Source: Pirellulaceae bacterium
GTDB lineage: Bacteria > Planctomycetota > Planctomycetia > Pirellulales > Pirellulaceae
DNA length: 39,061 nucleotides
Direction of reading: 5' to 3'
Assembly: GCA_028281725.1 (NCBI GenBank)
Contig: JANQJJ010000493.1
Location: forward strand, 1-39,061
The notes below the pieces were generated by a model. It did no database searches. It saw only the letters and a list, made by a program, of their open reading frames with translations, and was not told the origin of the DNA. This document shows positions 28,098 through 35,073 of the stretch, piece after piece; positions within the stretch are counted from its first letter, which is position 1, and every line of letters begins with the position of its first letter. The position numbers were made by a program, and so were the translations under genes.

Positions 28098-28291
28098 TGT
28101 CCCGTTACTGATTGAACTTACTCATACATGTGGTAGGTTTTGTCGGCCGATTTCCGCCGATGTGTTTGGCTGGCGTGCTCAGACTGTAATCGAATTCGAT
28201 TGCACTTTCGCCTCGCTAGCGCTCTAAAAAAATGAGCCCTGTCGGTCGTGGGACTCCGGCCGCAGGACCGCCGCCAACCAAATCAGCAAGC

Positions 28292-29797
28292 ATGAATCCT
28301 ACCGAACTCCTAAGGCTTGTCGACTCACTTCATCGTGAGAAGAATATCGATAGTGAAATCGTATTCTCAGCCATTGAGGCTGCCTTGCTAACGGCAGTCC
28401 GCAAGCATCGTGGTGAGGAAGCCGATGTGACGGTCACCATTGACCGCGACAGTGGCAATATCTCCGCTTCATGCGATGGCGAGGAGCTAGATCAAGCGGA
28501 AATCGGGCGGATTGGCGCGCAAACCGCCAAACAAGTAATCATTCAGAAGATTAAAGAGGCCGAACGCGACTCGCTGCTCGACGAATTCCATGACCAGGTA
28601 GGGCAGTTGGTCACCGGAACCGTCCAGCGAAGCGATCGAGGCGTAACGACCGTCCAACTAGGCAATATGGAAGCCATCTTGCCTCGTGGTGAACAGATTT
28701 CCGGCGAGTCCTACCACAATGGCGACCGCATTCGAGCCGTCGTCTATGAGGTCAAGGCTGCCGGAAATCGGGTCAAAGTCATCTTGAGTCGAACCAAGCC
28801 GCAATTGGTTCAGCGGCTCTTTGAGCAGGAAATCCCCGAAATTAGTGAAGGGGTGATCGAGATCAACGCGATCAGCCGCGAGCCCGGTCACCGCAGCAAG
28901 GTCGCAGTCAGCAGCTCCGATCAACGCGTCGATTGCGTGGGAGCCTGCGTGGGGGTTCGCGGAAACCGTATCAAGAACATCACCAGCGAATTGGCCGGGG
29001 AGAGGATTGACATCGTTCGCTGGAGCGAAGACCCGCTGGTGCTCATTCCTAGCGCGCTGCAGCCGGCCGAAGTGGAACAGGTTCTGCTGTGTGACATGAT
29101 TGGCCGGGCCATCGTGCTGGTCAAGGACGACCAACTCTCGCAGGCCATCGGTAAATATGGGCAAAATGTCCGCTTAGCCAGCAAATTGGTAGGCTGGGAC
29201 ATCGAGATCATGACCGCAGGCGAGCTCGAAGAGCAGATCGACCGAGCTGTTGGCGCCTTCATGGAATTGGAAGGAATGACGGAGGATTTGGCACAAAGAC
29301 TAGTGGAACAAGGCTATTTGTCGTACGATGATCTGTCTGTCATCGAGCCGGATGCCCTCATGGAAATGGGGGGCATGACCGCCGAACAGGTCGACGCCAT
29401 CGTCGAACAAGCCGATGTGCGAGCCGAAGAGGCCGAGCGGATTGCGGAAGAACAAAAGAGACTGAAGAAAGAGCAGGAGATGGCCGATCGACTTGCCGCC
29501 GAGCAAGCGCCGCCGCCGAGTCCCGCCGCTGAAACAGATTCGGCCACCGAGACGTCGACTACCGAAGAGCCGGTAGCGGACCTGCTGACAGACAAGGCTG
29601 TAGACGAATCCAAACCTGTAGACGAATCGACCACCCCATCAGCAGAGGCTGACCAGCCGGAAAACACGGACAACGCAGACAAACCTGTAGACGAAGACCA
29701 AGACGAATCCGCAACTGAGCAGAAGGCCACCACACCTCCTGCAGCTAGTGCTCCAGAGGAAACTATGGACCAGACAAATGTCGCCGATCAGAATTAG
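28292..29797 (+). CDS. nusA: Transcription termination/antitermination factor NusA
   Basis: It binds RNA polymerase and nascent RNA, modulating pausing, termination and antitermination. From Met 28292 there are 501 residues. The N-terminal polymerase-binding domain ([28 protein letters not shown]) is followed by an S1 domain ([20 protein letters not shown]), KH1 ([27 protein letters not shown]), and KH2 ([27 protein letters not shown]). A helix-hairpin-helix-like region ([18 protein letters not shown]) and a long acidic Glu/Asp/Thr/Pro tail of about 120 residues end the protein. The start is chosen because the NusA N-terminus begins there; the ORF-track start adds 20 Gly/Pro residues. rimP, usually upstream of nusA, is absent. 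Confidence 0.95.
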
Positions 29798-29841: not shown

Positions 29842-29997
29842 TAGGTTTCCGAATTGACGTTACTCTTTTAGCAGGGAGACGTCCATGTAGATGACACCCC
29901 CACGTGCGCCAGGTGGTCGTGTCAGAGCGCAGCGTCCGATAGGTTCGGCGCCGGTAGTTTGATGACCACTTTTTTGATTCCTTAGGAATAATTGCAC

Positions 29998-32727
29998 GTG
30001 CCGAAACGCATCTACGCGCTAGCCAAAGAACTGAAGATGGACAGCAAGGAACTGGTTGATCTTTGCTCCAAGATTGGGATCCAGAATAAGGGTTCTGCGT
30101 TAGCCAGCCTGGAAGACGACGAAGTCGAGCGCATCGAGAAGTATCTCGCCGGTGGTGAGGCTCAAGATTCTACTGAGGCACCACCAGAATCATCTACGGC
30201 CAGTGAAGCCCCCAGCAGCGCCAAGCCGGCCGCGTCGGGTGCTCCCTTGGCGGGCAGCAGAAAAAGCGCCCCCCCGCCAGTCACGCCGGCCAAGCCCGAG
30301 CCGGAATCGCCTAAGAAGCTCACTCGGGAAGATTATATCTCCCCAGCCGCCTCTGCGGCGGGTCGCGTACGCAGTCTGGATGCCAAGCGAACAGCGAGCA
30401 GCGATAGTTCTTCTGCCGTGGAAGAACGCAAAAAGCCACAACCTCAACAGCGTCGCGAACCGGTCATTAACTTGGCCCGCCTTCCCAAAGGCAATCAGCC
30501 GGTAGTCCCACCTCCGAAGTCGAACGAGCCGGCCCCCCAACGACCGGAGATCCGCTTCACCAAGGACGATATCAGCGGCCAGAAGCAGGGCATGAAGGCG
30601 CCCTTGCAAGATCTGGAAAAACAGCAGCAACAACCGAAGGAATCAGGACGCGGTAAAGGGAAGCCGAAGCAGGCTTCTGCCACACCGGCCGCCGGACCAG
30701 GTGGTCTCAGCCAGTTCACCAAAGCAGCGGCCGACCGCGCCAAAGGGCGCCATCGTCGAACCGAAGACGAGGATGAGAATCGCGGCAAGAAGGGCACTTC
30801 CGGAATCGCGGCGGCTCGCGCCGAACGGCGCCGCCGTGGACGAAGCGGTGGTGTCGAGAGCGATGATGACCGCCGGTCCTATCGCGGCGGCAGACGTCTG
30901 GTCCGCAAGGGAACCAATACCGCAGCGCCTCGCAAAGAAAATGCCGTGCTGGAACTGCCGTGCACGGTGCGCAGTTTTTCGGAAGCCACGGGTGTTCCCG
31001 CCGGACGCGTCCTGGGCACCCTGATGCAGATGGGCCATGGCGTCACGATCAACGCCAATCTGGAAGCAGAAATGGCCGAGTTGCTGGCCGTCGAACTGGG
31101 CGTCGAACTCGAATTCAAGTTGCCTCAGAGCTTGGAGGAAGGCATCATCGACAGTATCGAGGAGACGGAGGATTCAGCGGAGTCGCTCATCACCCGTCCT
31201 CCGATCGTGACCTTTCTCGGCCACGTCGATCACGGAAAGACTTCTTTGCTCGATTACTTGATTGGTACGCGAATCGTCACGGGCGAGGCAGGTGGCATCA
31301 CCCAGCACATCCGAGCCTATCAGGTCGAAAAAGATGGCCGAACAATCTCCTTTGTCGATACACCAGGCCACGAAGCGTTCACTGAAATGCGAGCCCGCGG
31401 TGCCAACGTAACCGATATTGCCGTACTGGTGATCGCCGCCGATGACGGCATCATGCCGCAAACCGAAGAAGCCATCAGTCACGCCAAGGCGGCCGAAGTG
31501 CCTATTGTGGTGGCGCTCAACAAGATTGATTTGGCCGGCGTAGACGCCAATCGCGCGCTAACCCAAATGACCGAACATGGCCTGACGCCCAGTGAATGGG
31601 GGGGCGATGTTGAAGTCGTGCGCACCAGCGCTATCTCTGGCGAAGGCATGGATGAGCTGCTGGAAACCTTGTTGACGGTAGCTGAGCTGCATGATTACCA
31701 GGCGAACCCCGACCGAGCAGCCATCGGTGTTTGCCTGGAAGCAGAACAGGCGTCCGACAAGGGTGTGATTGCCAAGGTCGTCGTTCAGAATGGAACACTG
31801 CATGTCGGAGATATTGTCCTGTGCGGCACCAGCTACGGCCGGGTGAAGGCCATGTACGACACTTTGAATCCTTCTCTGCAAGTAAAATCTGCCGGCCCCT
31901 CAGTACCGATCAATATTACGGGACTCGACTTCGCGCCGGGTGCCGGCGACCGGCTTTACGTCCTCGATAGTATTGCTCAGGCTCGCGAGTTGGCCGAAAC
32001 GCGATCGGACAAGTCGCGGGCCCAGTCGCTCTCCGGCTCGTCGCCCAAAGTCTCGTTTGAGGCCTTTCAAGACCTCTTGCAATCGGGCACGCTGGGGCAG
32101 GTTGAGGAGAAAGTCGAACTCAACCTCATCATTCGTGCGGATGCCCGCGGTAGCTTGGAAGCGATTGAAAAGGAGCTTTCGAAGCTGGAACACCCCGAAG
32201 TCGAAATCCGCGTTCTTCAAAAGAGCGTGGGCGGAATCACGGTAGCCGACGTCACCCTGGCGAGTGCTTCGCAGGCAGTCATCGTAGGTTTCAATGTCAT
32301 ACCGGACGAAAATGCTCGCGGGCTGGCAGACGAACGGAATGTAGAAATCCGTCGCTACGACATCATCTACAAACTGGCCGAGGATATCAAAGCCATTGTC
32401 GAAGGTCGCCTACGGCCCGAAGAACGCGTGGTCGAACTGGGACGCGCGTTGGTCAAAACGGTTTTCAATATCTCCCGCGTCGGAGCGGTGGCGGGTTGCT
32501 ACGTTGCCCAGGGCGCGATCGAACGTGGCTGCCGAATTCGTGTCCATCGCGATGGTCGAACCATCGGCGACTATGCTCTCGACTCACTCAAACGACATAA
32601 GGATGATGTCAAAGAAGTCCCACGTGGAATGGAATGTGGTATCAAACTAGCCGGCTTTAACGACTTAAAACAGGATGATGTACTCGAAGCTTATCGAATC
32701 GAAGAAGTAGCTCGAACACTCGACTAG
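29998..32727 (+). CDS. infB: Translation initiation factor IF-2
   Basis: This GTPase delivers initiator tRNA to the 30S subunit and promotes subunit joining. It has 909 residues from GTG 29998. Layout: an IF2N domain ([20 protein letters not shown]), a long charged, Ala/Pro/Lys-rich linker (about 50-310), a second IF2N-like segment ([25 protein letters not shown]), and the G domain with GHVDHGKTS (G1), DTPGH (G3), NKID (G4) and SAISG (G5). C-terminal domains follow, including [18 protein letters not shown] is preferred over TTG 29992 because the family N-terminus begins with Met-Pro-x-Arg-Ile-Tyr and AGGA is ten bases upstream. It is the middle gene of the conserved nusA-infB-rbfA order. Confidence 0.95.
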
Positions 32728-32792: not shown

Positions 32793-33224
32793 ATGGCCAG
32801 CCGTCGCATGCTCAAAGCCGCAGAGGCGATTCGAGAAGTCGTTAGCATGGCGATTTTGACGGAAATTCGCGATCCGCGCGTTCAACATGTCACCGTGACC
32901 GGCGTCGAAGTTACCCCCGACATGCGCTCGGCCAAGGTGAAGGTCAGTATTATGGGCGACGAGGGCCGGCAACAGTTGTGCTTGCGTGGCCTGAACAGCT
33001 CGGCAGGATTCTTGCAATCGAAGGTCGCCAAACGGATCGACACTCGGTATACGCCGCGCCTGACGTTTGAATTGGATCCAGGGGTCAAGAAGAGCCTCGA
33101 AGTCGGTCGCATTCTCCATGAATTAGAGCAGGAACGCGAACAACTCGCGGCTGAAAAACAACTCGCATCTGAAAAGCAGCCCCTGGCTGGCGACCTCCCG
33201 TCGCCCAACGAATCGACTGACTGA
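32793..33224 (+). CDS. rbfA: Ribosome-binding factor A
   Basis: It assists late maturation of the 30S subunit at the 16S rRNA 5' end. The 143 residues have the KH-like RbfA fold: [19 protein letters not shown], then [30 protein letters not shown], and [24 protein letters not shown]-terminal extension rich in Glu/Gln/Lys ([16 protein letters not shown]) carries a short repeat. It follows infB by 65 bases as in many bacteria. The next gene is not truB, so the classical operon ends here. Confidence 0.94.
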
Positions 33225-33324: not shown

Positions 33325-34257
33325 ATGAGTACCAAGAATCGCGGCGATCGTATTCAACTTTTGCACAAAGTCGTCTCCAAACACTTCACCCCCGTAGCCG
33401 CTCCAGAAGATCGATCCGTTCTCGAACACCTGATCTACGCTTGCTGCCTGGAAGACGCCAAATACGAGGCTACCGACGAAGCCTTTCATCGGCTACAAGA
33501 ATCTTACTTCGACTGGAACGAAATCCGCGTGACGACCGTCAGTGAATTGTGCGAAGCACTCCACAATTTGCCCAGCCCGAGCGCAGCGGCGCTGCGAATC
33601 AAGAAGAACCTGCAATCGCTCTTCGAAACCCGCTACAGTTTCGAAATTGATGACATGGTGAAAATGAATCAAGGAAAGGCCGTTCAGGAGCTGGAAAAGC
33701 TAAGCGGCATGACCAAATTTGTCCTCGGCTATGTCACGCAGAATGCACTCGGCGGACACTCGATTCCTGTCAGCGGCTCCATCATGCGAGTCTTGTTGGC
33801 AACCGAGGTAGTATCGGAAGCCGAAGCGGCCAAGGGACTCGCTCCCGGCCTGGAACGAACCGTGTCCAAATCGAAAGGGGCCAGCTTCGCGTCTTGCCTA
33901 CACCAGCTGGGCGTGATGTTCGCCACCACGCCGGGAGGCAAACAGGTCAAAGCGATTATGAAAGAAGCTGGTGCCGCTGAACCCAAGAAGAAAACCAAGG
34001 CTCCGGTCGCCAAGACTCCCGCCGCAAAGAGTTCTGCTGCGAAGAGTCCGGCCAAAAAAGTAGCCGCCTCCAAGGCGACTACTAAAAAGAAAGCGGCTGT
34101 GACCAAAGCAAAAGCAGCTAAGCGCGCGCCCGCTAAAAAGGCCGCTCCGAAGAAGACGGCTACCAAGAAAGCTGCCGCTAAAAAGCCGGCGAAAAAGGCG
34201 GCCGCCAAAAGCACCAAGGCGACTCCCAAGAAGATGTCAAAACGCAAACCACGTTAG
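33325..34257 (+). CDS. Endonuclease III-fold protein with histone H1-like tail, probably non-catalytic
   Basis: The 310 residues have two parts. Residues 1-215 resemble the helix-hairpin-helix glycosylase fold of endonuclease III: NLPSPSAAALRIKKNLQ, then KLSGMTKFVLGYVTQNALGG and IPVSGSIMRVL. In endonuclease III these are LPGVGRKTANVVL and IAVDTHIFRV, so the catalytic Lys aligns with Phe132 and the catalytic Asp with Ser150. The C-terminal Fe-S cysteine loop is missing. Residues 218-310 are a Lys/Ala/Pro/Thr tail with about one third lysine and AKK repeats, like histone H1 or HctB. The likely role is non-specific or structure-specific DNA binding, inferred from composition. The Lys/Ala tail may be elastic between strains. 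It follows rbfA and precedes the YebC gene by 66 bases. Confidence 0.78.
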   Translation: MSTKNRGDRIQLLHKVVSKHFTPVAAPEDRSVLEHLIYACCLEDAKYEATDEAFHRLQESYFDWNEIRVTTVSELCEALHNLPSPSAAALRIKKNLQSLFETRYSFEIDDMVKMNQGKAVQELEKLSGMTKFVLGYVTQNALGGHSIPVSGSIMRVLLATEVVSEAEAAKGLAPGLERTVSKSKGASFASCLHQLGVMFATTPGGKQVKAIMKEAGAAEPKKKTKAPVAKTPAAKSSAAKSPAKKVAASKATTKKKAAVTKAKAAKRAPAKKAAPKKTATKKAAAKKPAKKAAAKSTKATPKKMSKRKPR

Positions 34258-34323: not shown

Positions 34324-35073
34324 ATGGCCGGACATTCCCATTGGGCTGGAATCAAACACAAGAAAGCACTCGTTGACAGCAAACGCAGCAAGCTTTGGTC
34401 CAAACTGTCCAAAGCCATTATCGTCGCAGCCAAGCTGGGCGGGGGTGATCCGGACGCCAATGTTCGCCTGCGAACCGCCATCCAAGATGCTAAGTCGCTT
34501 AGCATGCCTCGAGAAAACATCCAGCGGGCCATCAAAAAAGGGACCGGCGAACTCGATGGCGGCAATGTGGAAGAGGCCTTGTACGAAGGCTACGGACCGG
34601 CGGGAGTTGCGGTCATGTGTGACATCATGACGGACAACCGTAACCGGACGGCTCCGGAGATTCGCAAGATATTCGACGTGCACGGCGGCAATCTTGGAGG
34701 AACCGGTTGCGTCGCCTACCTATTTGATCGCAAGGGCATCATCGTCATCGCGGCCGCCGGCGACCGGGAAGAGCAGATTATGGAAATTGCGCTCGAAAAC
34801 GACGCGCAGGACATCCAAACGGTCGACGACCGGATTGAAATCTTCACCGCCCCGGAAGGCTTGACGCAACTGTCCGGTGCGATCGAGCAGGCGGGCATTG
34901 CCATGCAAGTCAGTGAAGTGTCCCGAGTTCCTCAGACCACCGTCGACGTCGACTCCGCGACAGCCAAAATTGCACTCAAACTGCTCGAAACGCTTGAGGA
35001 CCATGATGATGTCCAGAGCGTGGCAACCAACCTGAACTTTGAAAACGAGGCGGTAGCTCAGCTGCTCTCCTAG
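34324..35073 (+). CDS. yebC: YebC/PmpR-family regulator
   Basis: This 249-residue protein has the TACO1/YebC fold. MAGHSHWAGIKHKKALVDSKRSKLW is the family N-terminus, followed by AAKLGGGDPDANVRLRTAIQDAKSLSMPRENIQRAIKKG and YEGYGPAGVAVMCDIMTDNRNRT. Family members have been described as DNA-binding regulators and as translation factors acting at proline-rich stretches; which applies here cannot be seen. The start at 34324 is fixed by the conserved N-terminus; the ORF-track start adds 22 unrelated residues. Codons near the end form the first arm of the terminator. Confidence 0.94.
   Translation: MAGHSHWAGIKHKKALVDSKRSKLWSKLSKAIIVAAKLGGGDPDANVRLRTAIQDAKSLSMPRENIQRAIKKGTGELDGGNVEEALYEGYGPAGVAVMCDIMTDNRNRTAPEIRKIFDVHGGNLGGTGCVAYLFDRKGIIVIAAAGDREEQIMEIALENDAQDIQTVDDRIEIFTAPEGLTQLSGAIEQAGIAMQVSEVSRVPQTTVDVDSATAKIALKLLETLEDHDDVQSVATNLNFENEAVAQLLS

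Follow-up and report, generated by a model that had tools for sequence, protein, structure and literature searches.

Gene content and conservation of the locus

The window, which designates here the whole stretch of 39,061 nt that was analysed from a Pirellulaceae bacterium, displays the gene order nusA-infB-rbfA-X-yebC with all genes on one strand. Gene X encodes a 310-aa protein combining a predicted endonuclease III (EndoIII) fold with a Lys/Ala tail. The features of the locus and the evidence supporting them are as follows.

28232..29797, + strand: ORF upstream of X, which we take to be nusA from inspection of its sequence
29992..32727, + strand: ORF, infB (IF2), conserved neighbour upstream of X
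32793..33224, + strand: ORF, rbfA, conserved neighbour directly upstream of X
33325..34257 (stop included), + strand: gene X, 310-aa protein with predicted EndoIII fold and Lys/Ala tail (ATG-started open frame; selection on the core; homologues)
33325..33969, + strand: folded core, residues 1-215, predicted HhH-GPD/EndoIII fold, net charge 0 (AlphaFold2, Foldseek, hhalign, charge count)
33451..33453, + strand: E43, at the position of the DNA-intercalating Gln of EndoIII (hhalign column; residue tally)
33511..33531, + strand: signature D63-W-N65-E-I-R68-V69, or DxNExRV (invariance in the alignment; per-sequence list)
33706..33720, + strand: degenerate HhH hairpin G128-M-T-K-F132, with F132 at the catalytic Lys site (hhalign; residue tally)
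33772..33774, + strand: S150, at the catalytic Asp site, just ahead of predicted helix 151-159 (AlphaFold2; hhalign; residue tally)
33970..34254, + strand: Lys/Ala-rich tail, residues 216-310, presumably disordered, net charge +34 (composition; sub-cut-off match to an H1-like NCBIfam model)
34240..34254, + strand: conserved C-terminal end KRKPR (pattern in 37/39 Pirellulales homologues)
34324..35073, + strand: yebC, directly downstream of X, from ATG 34324 (GTG 34258 being the listed start)

The yebC ORF as listed begins with the GTG that immediately follows the stop codon of X, while the conserved MAGHSHW start corresponds to the ATG at 34324, which is probably the true start.

A homologue of X was found in 145 of the 149 genomes of its class, nearly always as a single match, and a wider profile had a match in 279/294 genomes of the phylum, a figure that is an upper bound because this profile also catches true EndoIII paralogues. 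Gene X is phylum-wide in Planctomycetota and occurs in nearly every genome examined. When compared to congeners, its core displays a dN of about 0.14-0.21 with a dS of at least 2 or saturated (dN/dS < about 0.1) and is under strong purifying selection. On the same strand and directly upstream of X, rbfA occurs in all 40 sampled Planctomycetia loci and in 17/34 loci of other classes; yebC directly follows X in the genus of the window and in several loci devoid of rbfA. At one locus (L087, G195:C104), X is followed by yebC and a dnaA-type gene is also present.

An endonuclease III fold below the cut-offs of Pfam and NCBIfam models

The structure of residues 1-219 was modelled by AlphaFold2 with 30 homologues in the input and was predicted with a pLDDT of 94.7. 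The top Foldseek matches of the core (E 2e-6 to 1e-3) were D. radiodurans EndoIII-1, Arabidopsis ROS1, the EndoIII-DNA complexes 1orn and 1orp, MIG and MutY, and the model displays the two-domain all-helical fold of the endonuclease III/HhH-GPD superfamily. In profile-profile comparisons (hhalign), the X family aligned end-to-end with intact planctomycete EndoIII paralogues (99.7% probability, E 2e-26) and its profile also finds DrEndoIII-1 across the full length (E 2e-15). An earlier note, made from the sequence alone, had proposed that an HhH-GPD-like core aligns with endonuclease III and that structure prediction would be the way to check it; both approaches bear this out, and confirm the predicted EndoIII (HhH-GPD) fold of X.

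The window protein scores above the cut-off of no Pfam or NCBIfam model. It has no match to HhH-GPD (PF00730) above the gathering threshold, this model being matched at E <= 0.01 by only 6/48 members of the X family, and it reaches 26 bits for a cut-off of 400 with NF053634, which describes the monofunctional DNA glycosylase DR2438. The latter is the best library match for 37/48 members, with a best E of 4e-14. Lacking a usable family model, the window protein would be mistaken for a DNA-repair enzyme on the basis of its fold. A quick tree sets the X family apart from EndoIII paralogues with a support of 91, which is not decisive, and groups the Pirellulales homologues in a single clade.

As the earlier note had observed, the C-x6-C-x2-C-x5-C motif of the [4Fe-4S] cluster is absent from the window protein. 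This motif is carried by 39 of 107 X homologues, so that its absence is not a family trait. For one Fe-S-bearing homologue from another order, the predicted structure is nearer to EndoIII (TM 0.80), indicating that the branch of the window is more derived. Tails have a median of 34 aa and a net charge of +6 in homologues with the motif, versus 110 aa and +22 in those without. The idea that the Fe-S loop has been replaced by the basic tail was dropped, since the Fe-S state switches no more than about six times along the tree and a comparison of independent pairs does not support it.

Loss of the active site

In the hhalign alignment with the EndoIII paralogues, an ungapped stretch matches the catalytic Lys with F132 and the catalytic Asp with S150, and the two positions named in the earlier note are therefore exact; the window protein has neither catalytic residue of the endonuclease III enzyme. 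Residues at these sites were tallied in 107 homologues, all from Planctomycetota (39 Pirellulales, 34 other Planctomycetia and 34 from other classes). None has the catalytic Lys, most having F, Y or H at this site, with F in 39/39 Pirellulales. The catalytic Asp is kept in 66/107, namely in 34/34 non-Pirellulales Planctomycetia, 13/39 Pirellulales and 19/34 homologues of other classes, and is gone in 13 of the 14 sampled members of the genus of the window. The suggestion that Lys and Asp would be uniformly lost while the tail is kept thus holds for Lys, and for the tail throughout the Pirellulales, but not for Asp.

The usual helix N-cap residues are D, S, N, T and G, and one of these five occupies the Asp site in 101/106 homologues. 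Located immediately before a predicted helix, the site may be read as an N-cap at which capping has been kept and chemistry lost. Strict conservation of the Asp in non-Pirellulales Planctomycetia suggests that some constraint beyond capping operates there.

Other elements of the glycosylase apparatus have changed as well. The L-x-G-V-G motif of the HhH is not conserved in X, which has G-M-T in place of G-V-G, and the second HhH Gly is absent from 73/73 sampled Planctomycetia homologues. Only 1/107 homologues retains the His of the EndoIII DTH motif, and the site of the intercalating Gln is occupied by E in 68/73 Planctomycetia and is variable in other classes. Loss of the Lys alone would fit a monofunctional glycosylase; the summed losses argue against base flipping in the branch of the window.

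These data bear on the possibility that X acts in base excision, as a monofunctional glycosylase or as a sensor of lesions or AP sites that would function in lineages with the Asp and have degenerated in the genus of the window. MutY and other monofunctional glycosylases have no catalytic Lys and rely on the Asp, and the best library match is such an enzyme, DR2438. Many relatives retain Asp and Fe-S, with a model that fits EndoIII better, and DrEndoIII-3 binds damaged DNA while its activity is undetectable (PMC9268735). We nevertheless regard a role in base excision as quite unlikely: homologues that keep the Asp have nonetheless lost the Gly-x-Gly of the HhH, the DTH His, the intercalating Gln and the charge of the cleft, this Asp has itself nearly disappeared from the window's genus, and the same genome also carries intact EndoIII and MutY-type genes.

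Two minor observations concern this part of the fold. At loci L065 and L076 (G073 and G053), an insertion of ~20 residues that partly repeats the neighbouring KGLKQAAKQ is located right before the degenerate HhH hairpin. At locus L105 (G064:C5:320121-320759), a separate EndoIII-like paralogue from a genome of another Planctomycetia family occurs within a 600-aa open frame; with a Tyr at the Lys position, a conserved Asp (GIGKYAARR...PVDFH) and Fe-S cysteines, it is likely a monofunctional glycosylase as predicted from its sequence.

A family signature and a neutral core

Across the class, an alignment of 48 sequences shows no variation at D63, N65, R68, V69 or F100. The corresponding D-x-N-[ED]-x-R-V pattern was found again in other classes, while the D-x-N-E-x-R-V signature is not present in EndoIII paralogues. 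Judging from these alignments, the X family is defined by this near-invariant signature and not by an active site. The window protein, which has the signature and lies directly downstream of rbfA, belongs to this rbfA-linked planctomycete family. Its core has a net charge of 0, in line with a family median of about -1 to 0.5, whereas the median for intact EndoIII paralogues is +13; the core is therefore unlike a DNA-binding surface.

The Lys/Ala tail

The tail (95 aa) comprises 32 K, 30 A, 3 R and a single acidic residue, in agreement with the ~90 residues, one third lysine, described in the earlier note. Its Lys codons are a mixture of AAG and AAA, and no simple tandem repeat was found in it. 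Basic tails of roughly 80-220 residues occur throughout the Pirellulales homologues, which in 37/39 cases end at the C-terminus with a K-x-K-P-R/K pattern. Compared with congeners, the sequence of the tail diverges fast while its composition remains constant. Membership in the H1/Hc2 group was rejected, the matches to histone H1-like models being compositional and below cut-off (26 bits for 80 with NF038053 and 11.8 for 40 with PF07382).

Other Lys/Ala tails were located in the genome of the window by DNA pattern. A topoisomerase I-like ORF (G000:C448, locus L163), which by inspection we take to be TopA, ends in a tail of the same type (...KKKKKKKAAAKKAPKKKAAKKTAKKTSKKATAKKKAAKKES). Two small H1-like ORFs, both composed mostly of Lys/Ala and both under the Hc2 cut-off, were also detected: one at about 1381-1653 of G000:C462 (locus L164) and one at about 1498-1788 of G000:C256 (locus L158, minus strand). 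Tails of this type appear to be a recurrent trait of nucleic-acid-binding proteins in this genome and are not unique to X.

Loss of the catalytic residues and fast divergence of the tail could also be expected of a decaying gene whose tail is low-complexity sequence generated by drift. This explanation is refuted by the present data and has almost no chance of being correct: the core evolves under the constraint described above, the gene is present in 145/149 genomes of its class, its operon context is retained, the motif is invariant, the C-terminal end is conserved, and neither the mixed Lys codons nor the lack of a simple repeat fits drift.

The tail is more pertinent to a role of X as a nucleoid-associated architectural protein, in which it would neutralise DNA in the manner of histone H1 while the core bridges or positions DNA. 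The H1-like composition and charge of the tail, with its weak match to an H1-like model, speak for this role, as do the similar tails of TopA and of the two small ORFs and the descent of X from a DNA-binding enzyme. In G. obscuriglobus, the nucleoid is condensed and the condensing proteins were left unidentified (PMC3440768). Against it, the core is neutral and devoid of the EndoIII DNA-contact residues, HU is present too, and X is surrounded by translation genes. Moreover, the homologues of Gemmata-like families bear Fe-S and have only short tails, so that the tail and nucleoid condensation do not go together. Overall, a nucleoid function seems unlikely. Of the earlier proposal that a repair fold has been recycled as an architectural DNA-binding protein, the EndoIII fold, the lost chemistry and the basic tail are upheld, while the neutral core and the translation-gene neighbours count against the architectural role.

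A possible role in translation or ribosome assembly

The explanation that we favour, tentatively and at somewhat less than even odds, is that X descends from an EndoIII-type glycosylase, is no longer catalytic and has a housekeeping function in Planctomycetota, in which a neutral binding core and a nucleic-acid-binding tail would serve translation or ribosome assembly. Starting from an EndoIII-type glycosylase ancestor, X would have lost its chemistry and been kept across the phylum. Its core would neither flip nor cut bases and might instead bind a partner through its DxNExRV and GH (G144-H145) surfaces. The tail, presumably disordered, would bind nucleic acid non-specifically; X would most likely act at the machinery of translation or ribosome assembly, where its tail would hold rRNA or nascent RNA.

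This location is proposed because the gene sits in an operon for translation initiation and 30S maturation. YebC is in contact with 23S rRNA and aids translation (PMC12234827), and rbfA is up-regulated in the cold in R. baltica (PMC2754498). The conserved order nusA-infB-rbfA-X-yebC, the strongest functional clue obtained, favours translation over the nucleoid, and is a hint to the pathway of X, not to its binding partner. Against this explanation, half of the loci of other classes are not beside rbfA, a tail of the X type is also present on TopA, a DNA enzyme, in the same genome, and the Asp is strictly conserved in non-Pirellulales Planctomycetia. A more specific scenario, which we consider rather doubtful, is that a repair fold was converted once, early in Planctomycetota, to a non-catalytic, phylum-wide protein of the infB-rbfA operon acting in translation or ribosome assembly, with the histone-like tail as a tether to nucleic acid.

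Comparison with known systems

Catalytically dead glycosylase folds are already known. Mag2 of Schizosaccharomyces pombe is an inactive glycosylase homologue. According to the title of its PDB entry (4b21), Mag2 sculpts DNA at abasic sites; unlike X, it belongs to an AlkA-type subfamily and has no tail, and it is a weak structural match (E 2.6e-3). In the open-access literature, we found neither a described planctomycete pseudo-glycosylase or rbfA-linked EndoIII, nor a dead glycosylase fold that is phylum-universal, linked with the rbfA operon and extended by an H1-like tail.

By profile and by fold, the closest solved relative of X is D. radiodurans EndoIII-1 (DR2438; PDB 4unf and 8a5f; NF053634). 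To our knowledge, the gene of the D. radiodurans paralogue EndoIII-3 has no link to rbfA. EndoIII-1 differs from X in that its Lys, Asp, HhH and Fe-S cluster are all conserved; it is catalytically active, mostly as a monofunctional glycosylase (PMC9268735, PMC10523315). EndoIII-3 (PDB 4uob) resembles X in combining an EndoIII fold with undetectable glycosylase activity (PMC9268735), and has a TM of 0.81 with the Fe-S-bearing X homologue; it differs from X in that Lys, Asp and Fe-S are kept and no Lys/Ala tail was noted.

With respect to the tail, histone H1-like proteins such as chlamydial Hc2 and those of the Burkholderia type share the Lys/Ala-rich basic composition but have no EndoIII core. 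Finally, Arabidopsis ROS1 associates, as X does, a glycosylase fold with a Lys-rich disordered segment, which in ROS1 increases sliding and non-specific binding to DNA (PMC3526269); this segment is N-terminal in ROS1 and C-terminal in X, and ROS1 is catalytically active.
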